From the NCBI RefSeq assembly GCF_900177765.1, contig NZ_FXWI01000003.1, positions 434,001 to 498,000 on the forward strand: a stretch of 64,000 bases of DNA, given 5' to 3'. Shown in pieces: positions 32,566-40,737 of this stretch (position 1 is the stretch's first letter; every line of letters begins with the position of its first letter). A model generated the notes under the pieces. It was given only the letters and a program-made list of their open reading frames with translations, had not been told where the DNA came from and did not search any database. Made by a program: the position numbers and the translations under genes. The DNA is from Agreia sp. VKM Ac-1783 (GTDB taxonomy: Bacteria > Actinomycetota > Actinomycetes > Actinomycetales > Microbacteriaceae).

Positions 32566-32726
32566 GCGGGTGACAACGCCACCGTCGCGCGATCTATTCC
32601 TTGTAGTTACAAGTAATCGCGCGCTGTGTGAACATCTGGTTACGGGCGGAGATTCGGTTGACGGAGCTCCAAGCTTCGGATTGAGTGGGAATCGTCCCCG
32701 AATCCACCTTGGAGTACGTCACCTCT

Positions 32727-35474
32727 ATGCAGTCATCTATCAATCGGAGGCGCGCTGCGCGCGCCGCCGCCCTGTTCACCTCCGCAACCGTGGCCCTGAT
32801 CGGTCTGGGCGCGCTGCCTGCCTCCGCGGCCCCCGGCGACGTCTCGATCGACGTCTACACCATCAACGATTTCCACGGGCACCTCGAGCAGAACCTTTCG
32901 AGCGGAGAGGCCGGAGCGGCATCGATCGCCACGGCCGTCGCGTCGTTCCGGGCCGCCAACCCCAACACGACCCTCGTGTCGGCGGGCGACAACATCAGCG
33001 GCTCGCCCTTCATCTCTCAGGCATTGAACGACGAGCCCACGATTGACGTGCTGAACCAGATCGGCGTGAGTGTCACGTCGCTCGGCAACCATGAGTTCGA
33101 CCACGGCAGGTCCGATGTCGACGGTCGGATCTCGGACAGCTCGAACTTTCCGTACATCTCGGCCAACCTCTTCGACACGGCCACGGGTGAGCATGCTTAC
33201 GCGCCCTACAACGTTCAGACGTTCGACGGAGTCAAGGTCGGTTTCATCGGTGCTGTCACCGAGGACCTGCCCACGCTGGTGAACCCCGACGGCATCAACA
33301 CCGTCAAAGTCGCGGGGATCGTCGAGAGTGTCAACGCTGCTGCGGCCGAACTGAAAGACGGCATCGACGACGGCGAGAACGGTGAGGCCGATGTACTCGT
33401 GCTGCTGCTGCACGAGGGAGCAGCCTCCGCGACGGCGAATCTGACCGACACGAGCACCGTCTTCGGCAAGATCGTGACCGGCACAGCACCGAGCGTCGAT
33501 GCGATCGCGTCTGCCCACACTCATAATCTCTACGCACAGAACGTGACGGTCGGCTCGAAAACGCTGCCGGTTCTGCAGACGGCCAGTTACGGAACGAACC
33601 TGGGCCACTTTAACTTCCAGGTCAACCCGACCAGCAAGGCCATCTCCTCATCGAAGGCGGAGACGATTCCGCTCGTGGTCAAGGCGGTCGCGAGCTACGC
33701 GCAGGATCCGACCGTCGCGGCTATCGTCGCCGACGCCAAGCAGCGCTCCAGCGTCATCGGTCTGCAACCCGTGGGATCGATCTCGGCCGACTTCAAGCGT
33801 GCGGTACAGACCGACGGCAAAGAGAACCGGGGCGGCGAGTCGACCCTCGGTAACATCGTGGCCGATGGTCAGCTCTGGGCGACACGAGACCTGGGAACGC
33901 AGCTCGCGTTCATGAATCCGGGCGGTCTTCGCGCCGACATCGCGGTCGCGCCAGACGGCGTCGTCACCTATGAGGAGTCGGCCACCGTTCAACCGTTCGC
34001 CAACAGCCTGTTCACGCAGACCCTCACCGGCGCGCAGGTCAAGACCGTGCTCGAGCAGCAGTGGCAGCCAGGCCAGTCTCGACCGTTCTTGAAGCTCGGA
34101 ATCAACAAGGCGCTGAGCTACACCTACGACCCCTCGGCTGCCACAGGCTCGCATGTGACCGAGATCCGTTACAACGGCGCCGTGGTGAGCGACACCGACT
34201 CCTTCCAGGTCGTGACCAACAGCTTCCTCGCCGGAGGCGGTGACAACTTCAAAGAACTGGCTCTCGGGGCAGCTAAGACCGACACGGGACGCGTCGATCT
34301 CGACGCGTTCAAGCAATACATCGGCGCGAACTCCCCGCTCACGCCCGACTACGGATCTCGCTCGATCGGCGTGACTCTGACGTCGCCGGCAACGACCCCC
34401 GGAACACCGATCGACCTCGGAACGGTCGCGCCCGAGACCACGTTCTCGTTCGCCCTCAGTTCCCTCGTTCTCTCGGGCGCTCCGGTTCAGGACTCGACGG
34501 TGTCGGTGCAGTTCGACGGCGTCGAGATCGCCACGGCGCCGATCAACCCGGCCATCGTCGACACCTTCGATGAGCAGGGCACCGCAACAGTCGAGGTCAC
34601 GGTTCCGAAGCTCACCCGAAACGGCGACCACGTCGTGAGCTTCGTGCTCCCGACCACGGGCAAGTCCGTGTCGCTTCCGGTCACGACCACGGGTGAGATT
34701 CCGTTCGTGGCTCCGGATGCGCCGGCCGCGCCGACACTTGCGGCCGATGGCTTCTCCGCCGTGACGGCCTCATGGGCTCCGCCCGCCGTCGATGGTGGAA
34801 CACCCGTCACCGGCTACGAGGTGACTCTCTACGCCGACGGCACGAAGGCGGACTCCGCCTCGGTCGACGCTGCGACGACCTCGGTCGGCTTCGCGGGACT
34901 GAAGACCGACACCGACTACACGGCAACGGTCAAGGCGATCAACGCCGTGGGTTCGTCGGCCGAGTCGCAAGCGTCGAACGTCATCACCACCCCGCTGCCG
35001 AAGCCGACCACTGAGCCTGCGCTGCCATCGGCCGAGTCGCTTCCGGCCACCGAAACCGATGCCTTCAGTCTGAGCACGGGCAGCGCGACGAACGGACAGG
35101 CGGTGACGGTCTCCGGGCTCACACCGGGCGACTGGTACTACGTGTCGATCTTCTCCGATCCGGTGCGACTGGGCTGGTTCCAGGCCGATGAGTCGGGTTC
35201 GTTCTCGGTCACGATCAGCAACGTCCCGACAGGCACTCACCGCCTCGTCATCCAGGATCGGGATGGAACGGTGATCGGCTACCGCACGATCGTCGTTGCA
35301 GCCGACGGCACGGTCTCGGTCGTCGACCCCGCAGGTTCGGCCGGTGCATCACCGACAGGCTTGGCGGCCACGGGCATGGATGCGACGCTGCCGCTTCTCG
35401 GGGCGGGCCTCCTCCTCGCGGCGGGCGCGCTGCTGACGCTGCGCCGCCGTCGTGCGGCGAGGTCGACTTCGTAA
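32727..35474 (+). CDS. Cell-wall-anchored 5'-nucleotidase / cyclic phosphodiesterase (UshA-like)
   Basis: 915 residues. Signal peptide (1-36, ending PASAAPG), calcineurin-like phosphatase domain with YTINDFHGHLE, SAGDNISGSP, LGNHEFDHG and HTHNLY metal sites, then the 5'-nucleotidase C-terminal domain (GESTLGNIVADGQLW, NPGGLRADI, FLAGGGDNF). A fibronectin-type-III domain follows (about 670-760), then a further beta domain, an LAATG sorting motif, a hydrophobic helix and RRRRAARSTS. It should scavenge phosphate or nucleosides from extracellular nucleotides while linked to the wall by a class E sortase. ATG 32727 starts the signal peptide; the GGAG at 32711 is rather far upstream, and an in-frame start at 32685 would add 14 residues. 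Confidence 0.93.
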   Translation: MQSSINRRRAARAAALFTSATVALIGLGALPASAAPGDVSIDVYTINDFHGHLEQNLSSGEAGAASIATAVASFRAANPNTTLVSAGDNISGSPFISQALNDEPTIDVLNQIGVSVTSLGNHEFDHGRSDVDGRISDSSNFPYISANLFDTATGEHAYAPYNVQTFDGVKVGFIGAVTEDLPTLVNPDGINTVKVAGIVESVNAAAAELKDGIDDGENGEADVLVLLLHEGAASATANLTDTSTVFGKIVTGTAPSVDAIASAHTHNLYAQNVTVGSKTLPVLQTASYGTNLGHFNFQVNPTSKAISSSKAETIPLVVKAVASYAQDPTVAAIVADAKQRSSVIGLQPVGSISADFKRAVQTDGKENRGGESTLGNIVADGQLWATRDLGTQLAFMNPGGLRADIAVAPDGVVTYEESATVQPFANSLFTQTLTGAQVKTVLEQQWQPGQSRPFLKLGINKALSYTYDPSAATGSHVTEIRYNGAVVSDTDSFQVVTNSFLAGGGDNFKELALGAAKTDTGRVDLDAFKQYIGANSPLTPDYGSRSIGVTLTSPATTPGTPIDLGTVAPETTFSFALSSLVLSGAPVQDSTVSVQFDGVEIATAPINPAIVDTFDEQGTATVEVTVPKLTRNGDHVVSFVLPTTGKSVSLPVTTTGEIPFVAPDAPAAPTLAADGFSAVTASWAPPAVDGGTPVTGYEVTLYADGTKADSASVDAATTSVGFAGLKTDTDYTATVKAINAVGSSAESQASNVITTPLPKPTTEPALPSAESLPATETDAFSLSTGSATNGQAVTVSGLTPGDWYYVSIFSDPVRLGWFQADESGSFSVTISNVPTGTHRLVIQDRDGTVIGYRTIVVAADGTVSVVDPAGSAGASPTGLAATGMDATLPLLGAGLLLAAGALLTLRRRRAARSTS

Positions 35475-35540: not shown

Positions 35541-37013
35541 CTACGAGTGCTGAGTCGCTTCGACCCAGGCGAGGTACTCGGGGCTGACCGTGCCGGTGAC
35601 GTACTCGCCGGTGAAGCAGCTCATCTCGAGGTTCTTCACCTGGCTGCCCTCGAGAATGGCGCTCTCCATGTCGGAGATCTCCTGGTAGATGAGGTGGTCG
35701 GCGCCGAGCTCGCGGGCGATCTCGGGAAAACTGCGTCCGTGGGCGATCAGCTCCTCGCGCGAAGGCATGTTGATGCCGTAGACGTGCGGAAAGCGAACCG
35801 GGGGAGCGGCCGAGGTGAACGTGACCTTGTTCGCGCCAGCGGCCCTCGCCATCTCGACGATCTCCTTCGAGGTCGTACCGCGCACGATCGAGTCGTCGAC
35901 GATGAGGATGTTCTTGCCCTTGAACTCCGTCGACATGGCGTTCAGCTTCTGCCTGACGCTCTTCTTGCGCTCGGCCTGCCCGGGCATGATGAAGGTGCGC
36001 CCCACGTAGCGGTTCTTGTAGAACCCCTCGCGGTACTCGACGCCGAGCTTCTGTGCGACCTGCATCGCGGCAGGGCGTGACGAGTCGGGGATAGGCATGA
36101 CGACGTCGATGTCGCCCATCGGGGTGAGATCGGCGATGGTCGTGGCCAGCCGATTGCCGAGCCGGAGTCGAGCCTCGTAGACCGAGATGCCGTTCATGAC
36201 GCTGTCGGGTCGGGCGAGGTAGACGTACTCGAACGAGCAGGGCACGAGAACGGGGTTCTTCGCGCACTGGCGGGAGTACATCTCGCCGTTCTGCGTGATG
36301 AAGATGGCCTCGCCGGGCGCGACCTCGCGCACGACCTCGTAGCCGGATGCCTCGAGCACCAGGGATTCGCTGGCGACGACCCATTCGTCGCGCTGCACTC
36401 CGGCCAGCGCGTTGGCGTCGCTGCGCTTGCCGAGTACCAGGGGGCGGATGCCGAATGGATCGCGGAAGGCCAGCAGTCCATGACCCGCGATGATCGAGAT
36501 CACCGCGTAGGAGCCCTCGATGCGTTCGTGCACGTTGGCGACGGCATCGAAGACCTGATCCGGCTCGAGGTCGAGGCCCGACACCTGACCCTGCAGCTCG
36601 GTCGCCAGAACATTGAGCAGCAGCTCGGTGTCGCTCGACGTGTTCAGGTGGCGGCGATCGATGTGGAAGAGCTCCTGATTGAGCTCGCGGGTATTGGTCA
36701 GATTGCCGTTGTGGATGAGCACGATGCCGTAGGGCGCGTTCACGTAGAACGGCTGCGCCTCCTGCTCGTTGCCCGCGACACCCTTCGTGGCGTAGCGCAC
36801 GTGCCCCAGACCCACATTGCCGAGCAGCGACCGCATGTCGCGGGTGCGGAACGCTTCTCGCACCTGCCCCTTGGCCTTGACGATGTGGAACGTCGACCCG
36901 TCGGCGGTGGCGATGCCGGTCGAGTCCTGTCCACGGTGCTGAAGCAGAAGGAGGCTGTCGTACACCTGTTGATTGACCGGACCGGACGAGACGATACCGA
37001 CGATGCCGCACAT
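35541..37013 (-). CDS. purF: Amidophosphoribosyltransferase
   Basis: 490 residues. First committed step of purine synthesis: PRPP plus glutamine to phosphoribosylamine. It begins MCGIVGIV, so the nucleophilic Cys is exposed after removal of Met alone, with no propeptide. The PRPP-binding motif is ILIVDDSIVRGTTSKEIV. The VYGINMPSREELIAHGR block resembles E. coli PurF rather than the Fe-S cluster-bearing Bacillus type. Frame and length are normal. Confidence 0.97.
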   Translation of the reverse strand: MCGIVGIVSSGPVNQQVYDSLLLLQHRGQDSTGIATADGSTFHIVKAKGQVREAFRTRDMRSLLGNVGLGHVRYATKGVAGNEQEAQPFYVNAPYGIVLIHNGNLTNTRELNQELFHIDRRHLNTSSDTELLLNVLATELQGQVSGLDLEPDQVFDAVANVHERIEGSYAVISIIAGHGLLAFRDPFGIRPLVLGKRSDANALAGVQRDEWVVASESLVLEASGYEVVREVAPGEAIFITQNGEMYSRQCAKNPVLVPCSFEYVYLARPDSVMNGISVYEARLRLGNRLATTIADLTPMGDIDVVMPIPDSSRPAAMQVAQKLGVEYREGFYKNRYVGRTFIMPGQAERKKSVRQKLNAMSTEFKGKNILIVDDSIVRGTTSKEIVEMARAAGANKVTFTSAAPPVRFPHVYGINMPSREELIAHGRSFPEIARELGADHLIYQEISDMESAILEGSQVKNLEMSCFTGEYVTGTVSPEYLAWVEATQHS

Positions 37014-37086
37014 ACCGGGCGGGCTCCAGACGCTGTAGAGAAATAGGCCGTGCCCTATTGTACGGGAGCGCGGAGGTGCAGGTCCC

Positions 37087-37989
37087 TTAGAGGATCTCGA
37101 CCGACAGCAGGCGGTACTCCCTGCTGCGGCCCGCCCGCGTCGCCGAGCAGGTCGACAGCAGCGGCTCTGACAGCGTCTCTGCCAGCATCACCTTGATGAC
37201 CGCCGCGGGGTACTCGAGCTCGATGCGCCACACCCCGTCGGCGAACTGGGCGGTTCTCGGGCCGAGGATGTCGATGCGTTCGTCGTCGAGGGTGGCCCGA
37301 GCGTGGTGCTGCGCGGCTTGCACGGCATTCGGTAGCGAGCTACGGCCGCGGAAGAAGCGTTCGTCGACCCGGCCCTCCAGGTAGCGGTTGACGAGGCCCA
37401 CCGCATCCGCGCCGTCTGCCCGACCGTAATACAGGCCGTGGGGCAGCAGCACCAGGGTGCCCGCGAAACGGTCGCCACCGAGGTGCGAGCACTCCCACGT
37501 CTCGTCGGGAAAGGCCTCTGCGAGCGTCTTCACGACCTGTCGGCCGCGTACGGCGCAGCACTGATCATGGCGAGCGTGGGCGCAGACCGCGACGATCGGC
37601 CTGTGCGAGACGACGCCGACAGAGCCGTCGAGGGGAACATCGAGCAGCTCCTCGGCGGTCTCGACCCATCCCCACTTCACTCCCTCTGAACCGGGCCGCG
37701 AGTCGACGAGGGCCCAGCGGTAGCCGTCTTGCGGCCCGCGCTTGCCGGTTCTGCGGATGGCGAGCGGCCGCATGCCGAGCGACTCGACTCTCTTCACAAG
37801 CGCCCGGCCGACATCGGTCGGCAGAGTGGATTCGAGGAAGGCGTGCTGGCCCCACGCCCCGGAGATCTCGACGAGAAACCACTCCGTTCCTCGAGACCCC
37901 GTGCCCGGCAGAGGGTCGCCGCGCTCGCGGGAGCGGTCGCTGCACGGGCGCCAGTCGGGCAGCACCTGCCGAGCGCTGAGGTCTGTCAC
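37087..37989 (-). CDS. Sucrase/ferredoxin-like protein
   Basis: 300 residues. The C-terminal half carries the thioredoxin-like ferredoxin signature of this family: VAVCAHARHDQCCAVRGR, then WECSHLGGDRFAGTLVLLP and LYYGRADG. The paired Cys and the Cys/His of WECSHLGG could bind a 2Fe-2S cluster. The N-terminal half (SGAWGQHAF, ALVKRVESLGMRP) is a related thioredoxin-fold domain without the Cys pattern. It is the last gene of a three-gene operon; its start overlaps the oxygenase stop by four bases. A plausible role is electron supply to, or redox upkeep of, the Fe(II) oxygenase encoded just upstream; that is inference. Confidence 0.85.
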   Translation of the reverse strand: MTDLSARQVLPDWRPCSDRSRERGDPLPGTGSRGTEWFLVEISGAWGQHAFLESTLPTDVGRALVKRVESLGMRPLAIRRTGKRGPQDGYRWALVDSRPGSEGVKWGWVETAEELLDVPLDGSVGVVSHRPIVAVCAHARHDQCCAVRGRQVVKTLAEAFPDETWECSHLGGDRFAGTLVLLPHGLYYGRADGADAVGLVNRYLEGRVDERFFRGRSSLPNAVQAAQHHARATLDDERIDILGPRTAQFADGVWRIELEYPAAVIKVMLAETLSEPLLSTCSATRAGRSREYRLLSVEIL

Positions 37990-39245
37990 GCCTCGAGCAC
38001 CAGAACACCCTCGCGCACGAGGCGCCGACAGACCACGATGGCGTCTTCGTCGTCGAGCCCGGGCAGGGCACCCACCGGGGTCGACTCTCCGAGCAGCAGT
38101 CGGTCGAGCGCGGCGTGGGCCACGATCGGCAGCGAGAGCGTGCGCGAGCCGGCCGTGAGGCTCACGGTGTCGCCCCGTGCCTCGACCCGCCCCGCAAGCC
38201 CGAGACGCCAGCGAACGGTGGATGCGACGTCGAGATGGGCCAGACCCGTCACGGTGGCGAGGGGGCGCACCGGCTCGGGCCGGGTGATGTTCGTGAGCCG
38301 GCGAGCGAGCGACGTTGCGGCGGCGGCCGGCGTGACGGGATCGCGCTGGATCGCTGCGACGAGGTCGGCCAGCGTCTCGGCGAGAATGTCGGCCAGCGCC
38401 TGCGGGTCGTCGAGGTCGAGGCCCAAGGGCAGAGACGAGCGCAGGGATGCGTCGGCGCGGGTCTTCGCGATCACTTGCGCGACGAGATCCGCCCGAGTGA
38501 ACGCGCTCATGCCGATCGTGAGGTGCACAGACGTGTCGCCGAGCGCTTCGGCGGAGTGGATCCAGCCGCGGGGAAGATACAGGGCGTCACCCGGCTGCAG
38601 CACTTCGTCGATGACGGGCTCGTTCTTCGCCTCGTCGGCGACGGCCTTCGTGTGTTGAGACCACGGCTGGTCGGCCAGCGGATCGGGATGCACGGGGGAG
38701 TGGATTCTCCAGCGCTTCTCGCCGGCTATCTGCAGGACGAAGACATCGTGCACGTCGTAGTGGGGGTCGAAGCCGCGCGACGACGCGGGCGTTATGTACG
38801 CGTTGACCTGCACCGGATGCCCGAGGTCGGCCACCAGCCGCGTGGTGAAGTCGATGATCGGCGGCCATGTGCGGTGCAACCCCTGCAGCACGATGGTGGC
38901 GCCGTTCGCGAATTCTGCGAGTACTTTGTCGCTCGAGACCTGGTCGGCGATCTCTGCTCCGAAGCCTCCCGGGGCCGTGAACCTGTCTTTGGCGAGCACC
39001 TGGCCCTCGATGGCCATGCGCATGAACGGAGTGCGAAGTCCGCGCTCGGAGACGAGCTCGTCGACGGCATCGCTCGAGAAGAAGTCTGAGAAGTCGTGTT
39101 CGAGGCTCTCGGCCCGAGAGAGAAGGGGGCCACGCCCCCAGTAGTCAGCGGCGAACTCGTCGGTGCCGATGTTGATGCAGCGAGAAAGCGCGGGCCGGTT
39201 TCCCGACCCGCGCTCGGCCCTCGCTTCGTGAGGGCTAGGGTTCAT
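37986..39245 (-). CDS. JmjC/cupin-type 2-oxoglutarate oxygenase (ribosomal-oxygenase-like)
   Basis: 419 residues. A cupin_4/JmjC domain fills residues 20-250. Iron ligands are in FDPHYDVHDVFVLQIAGEKRW (HxD) and YLPRGWIHSAEAL (distal His); TWPPIIDFTTRL and VQVNAYITPASSRGF precede them. YLPRGWIH is closest to the MINA53/NO66 group (histidine hydroxylases) and the first motif also to bacterial YcfD (arginine hydroxylase of ribosomal protein L16). The C-terminal 150 residues form helical dimerisation and winged-helix regions, as in those enzymes. ATG 39245 is preferred; GTG 39248 adds one residue. Its start overlaps the stop of the repeat-peptide gene (TGATG) and its stop overlaps the ferredoxin-like gene (ATGA), so all three are co-translated. 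Confidence 0.88.
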   Translation of the reverse strand: MNPSPHEARAERGSGNRPALSRCINIGTDEFAADYWGRGPLLSRAESLEHDFSDFFSSDAVDELVSERGLRTPFMRMAIEGQVLAKDRFTAPGGFGAEIADQVSSDKVLAEFANGATIVLQGLHRTWPPIIDFTTRLVADLGHPVQVNAYITPASSRGFDPHYDVHDVFVLQIAGEKRWRIHSPVHPDPLADQPWSQHTKAVADEAKNEPVIDEVLQPGDALYLPRGWIHSAEALGDTSVHLTIGMSAFTRADLVAQVIAKTRADASLRSSLPLGLDLDDPQALADILAETLADLVAAIQRDPVTPAAAATSLARRLTNITRPEPVRPLATVTGLAHLDVASTVRWRLGLAGRVEARGDTVSLTAGSRTLSLPIVAHAALDRLLLGESTPVGALPGLDDEDAIVVCRRLVREGVLVLEA

Positions 39246-39502
39246 CACGCCGATCCGTCGGCTCCGCCGTCGTGGCCGCCAGGGTTGGCGCCGCCGTCAG
39301 CGGTGCCCTCTCCCTCATCGGCCGATCCGTCGGCGCCGCCGTCGTGGCCGTCGGGGTTCGCGCCACCGTCTGCCGGGCCTTCGCCCGCAGACGCTGCGCC
39401 GTCCGCGCCACCGTCGTGTCCGCCTACGTTGGCTCCGCCATCAGCGGGGCCCTCGCCTGCGTTGTCGGTTCCTGATGTGATGTCCTCGTCGTTGATACCC
39501 AT
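39245..39502 (-). CDS. Acidic repeat peptide, three 24-residue units, first gene of the oxygenase operon
   Basis: 85 residues. The gene is real: GGAGGAG lies six bases before ATG 39502. After a short leader (MGINDEDITSGTDNA) come three tandem units beginning at residues 16, 40 and 64, each of form GEG(P/T)ADGGAN, two to three variable residues, GHDGGADG. Each unit has one His (29, 53, 77), one Asn (25, 49, 73) and several Asp; there are no Cys, aromatic or basic residues apart from His. It is soluble and disordered, with no signal peptide or membrane segment. Translational coupling to a histidine-hydroxylase-like oxygenase makes it a candidate substrate or precursor peptide. The function itself is not known to me. 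Confidence 0.75.
   Translation of the reverse strand: MGINDEDITSGTDNAGEGPADGGANVGGHDGGADGAASAGEGPADGGANPDGHDGGADGSADEGEGTADGGANPGGHDGGADGSA
39248..39457 (-). repeat. 72-bp tandem repeat array encoding the peptide units
   Basis: Two full and one nearly full copy of a 72-base unit encode residues 16-85 of the repeat peptide. Copies differ at several bases but keep the His, Asn and Asp codons, so the repeats have diverged while the protein pattern was kept. Confidence 0.8.
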
Positions 39503-39636
39503 CGGTTCTCCTCCCACGGTGGATGTCTGGCCACCATCGGAGAACACGCTACTCCCGTCGACCGACAGTGCGGCAGGGGGTTTACAGATGTTGCTACGAC
39601 CGTCGCAGGTGGCGCACATAGGGAAGAATGAACAGC

Positions 39637-40737
39637 ATGAGCAACAGCTATGCCCAGGCCGGCGTCGATACTCACGCCGGAGACCTCGCCGTCGAACTGA
39701 TGAAGGCCGCGGTCTCGAACACGCACGGCCCTCAGGTCGTCGGCGGCTTCGGCGGATTCGCCGGGCTCTTCGATGTCTCCGCCCTCAAGCAGTTCGATCG
39801 ACCGCTGCTGGCCACGTCGACCGATGGCGTGGGCACGAAGGTGGCCATCGCGCAGGCCATCGACAAGCACGACACCATCGGACAAGACCTGGTGGGCATG
39901 GTCGTCGACGACATCATCGTCGTCGGTGCCACTCCGCTCTTTATGACCGACTACATCGCCTGCGGCAAGGTCGTTCCCGACCGCATCGCCGACATCGTCG
40001 CCGGCATCGCGCGTGCATGCTCCGACACGGGCACCGCGCTGGTCGGGGGCGAAACGGCAGAGCACCCCGGCCTCCTCGGGCCGGATGACTACGACGTGGC
40101 GGGAGCGGCGGTCGGAGCGGTCGAGGCCGACGCCCTTCTCGGCGCACACCTCGTCGAAGACGGCGACGTGGTTCTCGCCCTCGAATCATCGGGCCTGCAC
40201 TCCAACGGATTCTCTCTCGTTCGACACATTCTCTCGACACGGGGCATCGGCTACACAGATACGTCAGCCGAGCTCGGCGGCGTGGTGGGCGAAGTCCTTC
40301 TCGAGCCGACGCGTCTCTACACCTCCCCGCTCCTGCGTGTCCTCGGCGACTCTGCCCTCGCTGGCGCGGTGCATTCGTTGTCGCACGTCACCGGCGGCGG
40401 CATCGCAGCGAACCTCGCGCGGGTTCTCCCGAAGGGTTCGTGGGTCGAGCTGGAGCGCTCGACGTGGTCACCCGCGCCGGTGTTCCGTGTTCTCTCAGAC
40501 CTCGCAGGTTCGACTCTCGAGAGCTCGGAAGGCACCTGGAATCTGGGTATCGGAATGTTCGCCGTGGTGAAAGCCGATGCGTCCGACGCCATCGCCTCTG
40601 CACTGACGGTCGACGGCATCCGCACCTGGAAAGCCGGCGTCGTGTCGCTCGGCCAGCGCGATCTAGCCGGTTTCGAGCAGGGAGCCAAGGGTGTAGACGG
40701 GGGAGCGGTGCGACTCGTCGGAGACTTCGCAAGCTGA
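39637..40737 (+). CDS. purM: Phosphoribosylformylglycinamidine cyclo-ligase (AIR synthetase)
   Basis: 366 residues. It closes the imidazole ring of FGAM to give AIR using ATP. Landmarks: GDLAVELMKAAV, GGFGGFAGLFDVS, LLATSTDGVGTKVAIA, DLVGMVVDDIIVVGATPLFMTDY (divided), LVGGETAEHPGLL and HVTGGGIAANLARVLP. ATG 39637 is chosen because GGGAAG lies ten bases upstream; ATG 39628 sits too close to that site. It is divergent from the oxygenase operon and ends at a hairpin. Confidence 0.96.
   Translation: MSNSYAQAGVDTHAGDLAVELMKAAVSNTHGPQVVGGFGGFAGLFDVSALKQFDRPLLATSTDGVGTKVAIAQAIDKHDTIGQDLVGMVVDDIIVVGATPLFMTDYIACGKVVPDRIADIVAGIARACSDTGTALVGGETAEHPGLLGPDDYDVAGAAVGAVEADALLGAHLVEDGDVVLALESSGLHSNGFSLVRHILSTRGIGYTDTSAELGGVVGEVLLEPTRLYTSPLLRVLGDSALAGAVHSLSHVTGGGIAANLARVLPKGSWVELERSTWSPAPVFRVLSDLAGSTLESSEGTWNLGIGMFAVVKADASDAIASALTVDGIRTWKAGVVSLGQRDLAGFEQGAKGVDGGAVRLVGDFAS

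Follow-up and report, generated by a model that had tools for sequence, protein, structure and literature searches.

The window analysed here is a stretch of 64,000 nucleotides from Agreia sp. VKM Ac-1783 (Actinomycetota; Microbacteriaceae; assembly GCF_900177765.1, contig NZ_FXWI01000003.1, positions 434,001 to 498,000 of the forward strand). Within it, genes for a short repeat peptide, a JmjC-type oxygenase and a Suc_Fer-like (ferredoxin-like) protein make up a self-contained cassette flanked by the divergent purF and purM genes (window 37014-39627; Table 1). An earlier note on this DNA had proposed three overlapping genes in this order, and the open reading frames (ORFs) bear this out, each junction being a four-nucleotide GTGA overlap. 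The same note described an 85-residue peptide of three 24-residue units; the length and the three units, in each of which GHDGGADG and GGAN occur once, were confirmed, but the third unit has 22 residues. The cassette includes no protease gene. In a congener without the cassette (genome G005, locus L217), approximately 140 bp separates the head-to-head purF and purM genes, as opposed to 2.6 kb in the window, and the cassette therefore appears to come or go as one unit.

Table 1. Features of the cassette and its flanking genes, in window coordinates.
Feature	Position	Strand	Details
Peptide gene, putative precursor	39245..39502	minus	85 amino acids (aa) plus stop; ORF, homologues upstream of the oxygenase, mainly synonymous codon differences
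Leader-like start, residues 1-15, MGINDEDITSGTDNA	39458..39502	minus	DDDIT-type motif in most relatives; leader role putative
Repeat unit 1, 24 aa	39386..39457	minus	starts at residue 16
Repeat unit 2, 24 aa	39314..39385	minus	starts at residue 40
Repeat unit 3, 22 aa	39248..39313	minus	starts at residue 64
Shine-Dalgarno-like GGAGGAG before the peptide gene, putative	39508..39514	minus	read from the sequence
JmjC_2 oxygenase gene	37986..39248	minus	420 aa, GTG start; PF08007, 107.8 bits (cut-off 22); NO66/MINA53 fold
Pfam JmjC_2 match, residues 144-254	38487..38819	minus	PF08007; holds H163, D165, K178 and H231
C-terminal winged helix, residues 325-420	37989..38276	minus	RRE-like (RiPP recognition element) order of elements; model pLDDT (predicted local distance difference test) 91.5
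Suc_Fer-like gene, putative redox partner	37087..37989	minus	300 aa, GTG start; PF06999, 63.6 bits (cut-off 34.9); adjacent in 135/155 loci
purF	35541-37013	minus	flanks the cassette
purM	39628-40737	plus	flanks the cassette

The peptide matches no family in Pfam or NCBIfam. When its gene is compared with those of five congeners encoding a peptide of equal length (L003-L007), synonymous and non-synonymous codon differences number 12/0, 11/1, 15/1, 13/1 and 16/5, respectively, and the first two units within the window gene differ by 12 synonymous and three non-synonymous codons. Because these differences are mainly synonymous, the protein sequence of the repeats is maintained, and the peptide is under purifying selection. 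A further congener (L002) encodes only two units. Among homologues, most begin with a DDDIT-type motif followed by a variable Asp core, although the motif is absent from 13 members of one clade of 16. Each of the 153 peptides picked by script consists of at least 10% Asp, while Cys is essentially absent from the cores (0.1% of core residues).

The oxygenase belongs to the JmjC_2 family, and the earlier reading of a NO66/MINA53-like enzyme with an HxD motif and a distal His agrees with its predicted fold and with the PDB, in which the solved structures nearest to it, by both sequence and fold, are those of NO66 and MINA53. As in the ribosomal oxygenases, a JmjC core with the HxD...H and 2-oxoglutarate-Lys positions is followed by a C-terminal winged helix. 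H163, D165 and K178 are identical in all 165 aligned family members, and H231 in 161, the remaining four having a gap; in the JmjC family, residues at these positions serve as the metal and 2-oxoglutarate ligands. R126 and Q147 are likewise invariant in this family, whereas the alignment with NO66 places other residues there; V120 aligns with the NO66 arginine which we presume to be substrate-binding Arg297. Structure comparison of the model matched the winged helix to MINA53/NO66, to PqqD, to the RRE of PbtF and to TbiB1. Its strands precede its helices, as in RRE domains, and the fold is one that NO66 and MINA53 share. In the model, this domain resembles the recognition elements of ribosomally synthesised and post-translationally modified peptide (RiPP) systems. 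No multinuclear non-heme iron-dependent oxidative enzyme (MNIO, DUF692) family occurs among the Pfam matches up to E 1; the candidate modifying enzyme is the JmjC_2 protein.

The third protein is a PF06999 Suc_Fer-like protein, resembling in this the thioredoxin-like ferredoxins Apd1 and Aim32; no sequence in the PDB matched it at an E-value below 0.25. Residues C16, C136, H138, C144, C145 and H169 are identical in 136/136 sequences, as is C281 in all 135 with a residue at that position, and because these Cys and His residues are invariant the protein would fit a cluster-binding redox role. It departs from Apd1 in one respect: where Apd1 carries what we presume to be the second His of the pair among its [2Fe-2S] ligands, 134 of the 136 sequences have Asp (Asp173).

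The earlier note had called for a search for the same gene order across Actinobacteria and named an oxygenase usually occurring without the peptide as one outcome that would refute it. Neither the 60 related genomes nor the 155 loci considered here show such a pattern. The oxygenase is encoded in 19 of the 60 genomes. A profile of the peptide (A2) matches 17 of them, always directly beside the oxygenase, and none of the 41 genomes without the oxygenase; by this profile, the peptide was never found apart from the enzyme in the 60 genomes. In the two remaining carriers (G037 and G050), a different Asp-rich peptide is encoded upstream (L019 and L018, respectively). Since both are confined to the same genomes, peptide and oxygenase are gained and lost together. 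This nearly holds for the Suc_Fer gene as well, PF06999 being present in all 19 carriers and in three other genomes.

In the 155 loci (those, among 168, whose oxygenase scored above 300 bits against the A1 profile, after removal of L020 and L021 from 170), the oxygenase is immediately preceded by an Asp-rich ORF in 153 by script and in the remaining two by eye, the peptide of L071 being interrupted by Ns and that of L128 lying in two frames. These loci are partly non-independent, as some genomes occur under both a G handle and a named record (L010/L054, for example) and sampling is uneven across genera. The script is also biased towards Asp-rich ORFs, and at L149 it selected an unconvincing repeat. 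As a control, a cruder criterion (DG-rich, poor in Arg and Lys) was applied to the window and 79 named loci, where it was satisfied upstream of 45/58 oxygenase starts compared to 2/860 starts of other long ORFs. The pairing is thus beyond chance. A Suc_Fer gene follows directly downstream in 135/155 loci. Nine of the 20 exceptions are in searchable G genomes, five of which encode a Suc_Fer protein elsewhere and four none at all; the protein is therefore accessory and dispensable in some genomes.

A class-wide draw yielded matches at E ≤0.001 in 131/393 genomes, a figure which includes distant JmjC paralogues; the named loci are the best 80 of 558 loci encoding a relative. Genera among the matches listed include Leifsonia, Herbiconiux, Cellulomonas, Rhodococcus, Gordonia, Dietzia and Mycolicibacterium. 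In a phylum-wide draw, 16/119 genomes matched at E ≤1e-60, ten of them from other classes and contributing 11 loci (L183-L193), and Suc_Fer is adjacent in 10 of these 11. The three-gene order thus recurs across Actinomycetota.

Assessing whether the peptide is a substrate or simply a companion of the oxygenase is an immediate concern. The peptide could be an acidic disordered partner, a metal-delivery peptide or an ORF serving translational coupling, with the oxygenase acting on another protein, for example a ribosomal one. The fold of the enzyme, which is that of ribosomal oxygenases, the overlapping genes and a low-complexity acidic sequence compatible with a disordered partner would all suit such an arrangement. 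A mere coupling ORF, however, would not keep its amino-acid sequence, and a leader-like motif followed by a variable core is precursor-like. Furthermore, oxygenase and peptide are jointly absent from 41/60 relatives, and different short precursor-like peptides stand beside distant paralogues of the enzyme (see below). We therefore regard a non-substrate peptide as rather unlikely.

A second concern is the residue modified. The earlier note had singled out the His and Asn of GHDGGADG and GGAN, such that the oxygenase would hydroxylate His, and perhaps Asn, much as NO66 and MINA53 act on His of ribosomal proteins. The closest solved structures speak for this, as does the frequency of HDGG, found in 131/153 peptides and in 73/92 representatives (below 82% core identity); GG(A/S)N occurs in 109/153. 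Many peptides nevertheless lack His or HDGG. On a quick tree of the 92 representatives, HDGG changes at least ten times and GG(A/S)N three times, exact numbers being uncertain given long branches and open forks, and the sister peptides L138 and L140 differ in His. In ten of the 11 loci from other classes, the peptide has a D-x-(D/Q)-(I/M) start and an Asp-rich core (DADGTDGDGTDG, DADAADADAS and TDTDTTDSTD, for example); none of these ten contains HDGG and only L186 has a single His, while the remaining paralogue, L193, has no convincing peptide upstream. Members whose peptide lacks His, moreover, retain the same ligands and the same R126 and Q147, both invariant in the family. Because both His and Asn vanish in many relatives, we set them aside as general targets, and His-directed hydroxylation now appears improbable. 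By sequence comparison Asp is the constant residue of the cores, with His, Asn and even Gly variable, and, being common to all of them, it is the likeliest target.

We also considered whether leader motif and winged helix change together. Among the 92 representatives, 70 have the motif and a full domain, 13 have neither, six have only a shortened domain and three lack only the motif. All 16 members of one clade have the shortened domain, which is therefore close to a single event, and the Fisher test value for the association was set aside as not being independent evidence.

The interpretation we prefer, with moderate confidence, is a RiPP-like cassette in which the oxygenase would bind the leader of the peptide and hydroxylate the Asp residues of its repeats, assisted by an accessory Suc_Fer-like protein. 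The earlier suggestion of a modified repeat peptide of RiPP type is supported by gene order and co-occurrence, and hydroxylation itself is a prediction. The cassette places a short precursor-type gene beside a modifying-type enzyme gene, the arrangement used as a criterion for RiPP loci. Hydroxylation is the default chemistry of JmjC hydroxylases, and JmjC proteins, FIH among them, can take Asp, Asn and His as targets. The 85-residue peptide would constitute the precursor, its DDDIT-type leader followed by a core of tandem Asp-rich units, and is, in our estimation, quite probably a substrate of the oxygenase. Leader binding may proceed through the RRE-like C-terminal winged helix, for which we see roughly even chances. 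Hydroxylation would then fall on repeat Asp residues, most likely at the beta-carbon and several times per molecule, Asp being a reasonably probable main target. The Suc_Fer-like protein might supply electrons to keep iron as Fe(II), a redox role which we put forward tentatively. Such modification would yield a soluble, polyanionic product peptide with a high content of hydroxy-Asp. Its role is a guess: hydroxy-Asp serves as a metal ligand in siderophores, and on this basis, and by analogy with the bufferins, the product might bind metal, for instance Fe(III) or Ca, which we consider doubtful.

Chemistry beyond hydroxylation, such as oxidative rearrangement or cross-linking at Asp with the participation of Suc_Fer, has a precedent in the conversion of Asp via beta-hydroxy-Asp to aminomalonate by SmaO and SmaX, as reported in PMC13097080, but is highly improbable here given that the cassette encodes one oxygenase only, with the usual JmjC ligand positions, and that Suc_Fer is dispensable in some genomes.

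More distant JmjC_2 enzymes may offer a wider view. Of 34 loci with an enzyme below 300 bits, 20 yielded a short acidic upstream candidate in a scripted search and the other 14 yielded none; the script gives preference to Asp-containing tails, which accounts for part of the Asp-richness but not for the recurrence of types. At least four peptide types, with Asp in SD, ND or DG contexts, recur in different genomes before distant actinomycete JmjC_2 genes: type B, ending in GGDSDGTDSSSDFI or close to it (nine loci: L167, L197-L199, L202-L204, L207 and L208); type C, ending in SDGND or SDMNDS (L164, L169 and L200); type D, with SDTNDG or SDLND (L163, L205 and L209); and type E, with DPDGSDG (L170 and L214). 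Candidates at L155, L194 and L213 occurred once each. Seven representatives of the paralogue-associated and other-class peptides matched nothing in Pfam or NCBIfam. To judge from their sequences, these look like further families of JmjC-modified peptides.

Several distant loci deserve separate mention. On plasmid pSCL4 of S. clavuligerus (L194:3760-5155), a hypothetical protein of 48 aa directly precedes a cupin/JmjC gene; it starts with LEPDEIEV, carries ADNDPSDP and ADPDPFDP in its core, and has S9 peptidase and ATP-binding cassette transporter genes nearby. Plasmid pPg_03 of Pseudanabaena galeata (L195:2947-4167) encodes a distant JmjC homologue (28% identity) and, approximately 3 kb away, a lanthipeptide synthetase of the LanM type. 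The distant JmjC gene at L155 is preceded by a Cys-rich ORF resembling a precursor, which starts with MDEIQV and has the core ICDPDPSDDCWIVCNPNYCY. Among the matches listed, 7/8 distant plasmid homologues are annotated only as cupin-domain proteins.

In its broadest form, our proposal is that a single RRE-fused JmjC oxygenase, by repeated Asp hydroxylation, would make a poly-(beta-hydroxyaspartate) metal-binding peptide across Actinomycetota, that sister JmjC_2 enzymes would make other Asp-hydroxylated short peptides, and that the winged helix of the eukaryotic ribosomal oxygenases would be the same kind of domain as that binding RiPP leaders. That all of this should hold is somewhat unlikely.

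The surroundings of the cassette offered no sign of a larger operon. Clustering of neighbouring ORFs of at least 110 aa in the 79 named loci left only the oxygenase and Suc_Fer as widely recurrent, with no other gene family around the oxygenase in more than six of 23 genus labels; two further widespread ORF clusters, on the opposite strand over the cassette genes, were taken as spurious antisense ORFs. Iron regulation was likewise considered upstream of 151 peptides and rejected, because the best matches to a DtxR/IdeR-type consensus have six mismatches in 19 bases. Beside purF, the window encodes a 5'-nucleotidase-like protein of 929 aa (32685-35474) with a signal-like start, an LPxTG-like or transmembrane tail (by eye) and six NCBIfam matches, all below cut-offs.

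The earlier note knew of no described system of this form, and we found none in the open-licence literature searched, supplements aside: neither the Asp-repeat precursor, nor the three-gene cassette, nor its spread is described there, and a text search with the strings of the repeat returned no match. These three elements are, within that literature, what is new here, earlier work having already described the hydroxylation of RiPP precursors by JmjC enzymes and mentioned JmjC-RRE proteins in RiPP-like settings. With one short peptide, one oxygenase and a single accessory protein, the cassette makes a compact, directly testable system. Should the repeats be hydroxylated by the oxygenase, the cassette would represent an undescribed RiPP-like family in several actinobacterial genera, show how chains of hydroxylated Asp can arise in nature and assign a substrate to bacterial JmjC_2 enzymes. 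It is also relevant to the question of why the human enzymes NO66 and MINA53 should have a winged helix resembling a leader-binding domain.

Among the nearest precedents, hydroxylation of RiPP precursors by JmjC enzymes is reported for BipG (PMC12707348) and for the JmjC-related PbsQ and BpmG (PMC12257519). BipG and BpmG belong to biphenomycin clusters, and the likeness to them is that of a JmjC enzyme working on a RiPP precursor, which is putative in our case. Those clusters, however, also encode a B12 radical S-adenosylmethionine enzyme, an MNIO, an arginase and an HExxH hydroxylase, and target Arg/Orn, whereas the present cassette has one oxygenase and an Asp-repeat peptide. The bufferins, metal-binding RiPPs described in PMC12452194, resemble the cassette in their small, strictly ordered gene set and in a possible role involving metals, but have Cys targets, an MNIO enzyme and a Sec signal peptide, in place of the JmjC enzyme and essentially Cys-free peptide seen here. 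Section 6 of PMC12710340 reports RRE-like folds fused to PF08007, with bacterial homologues in RiPP-like contexts. Our oxygenase is of the same Pfam family and carries such a domain; relative to the main text of that paper, a precursor of the present type, the Suc_Fer partner and the Asp repeats are described only here. Finally, the ribosomal oxygenases NO66, MINA53 and YcfD (PF08007) share the JmjC core, the ligand positions and the C-terminal winged helix. In contrast to them, the oxygenase of this cassette is encoded beside its own Asp-repeat peptide and, relative to NO66, is distinguished by its invariant R126 and Q147.
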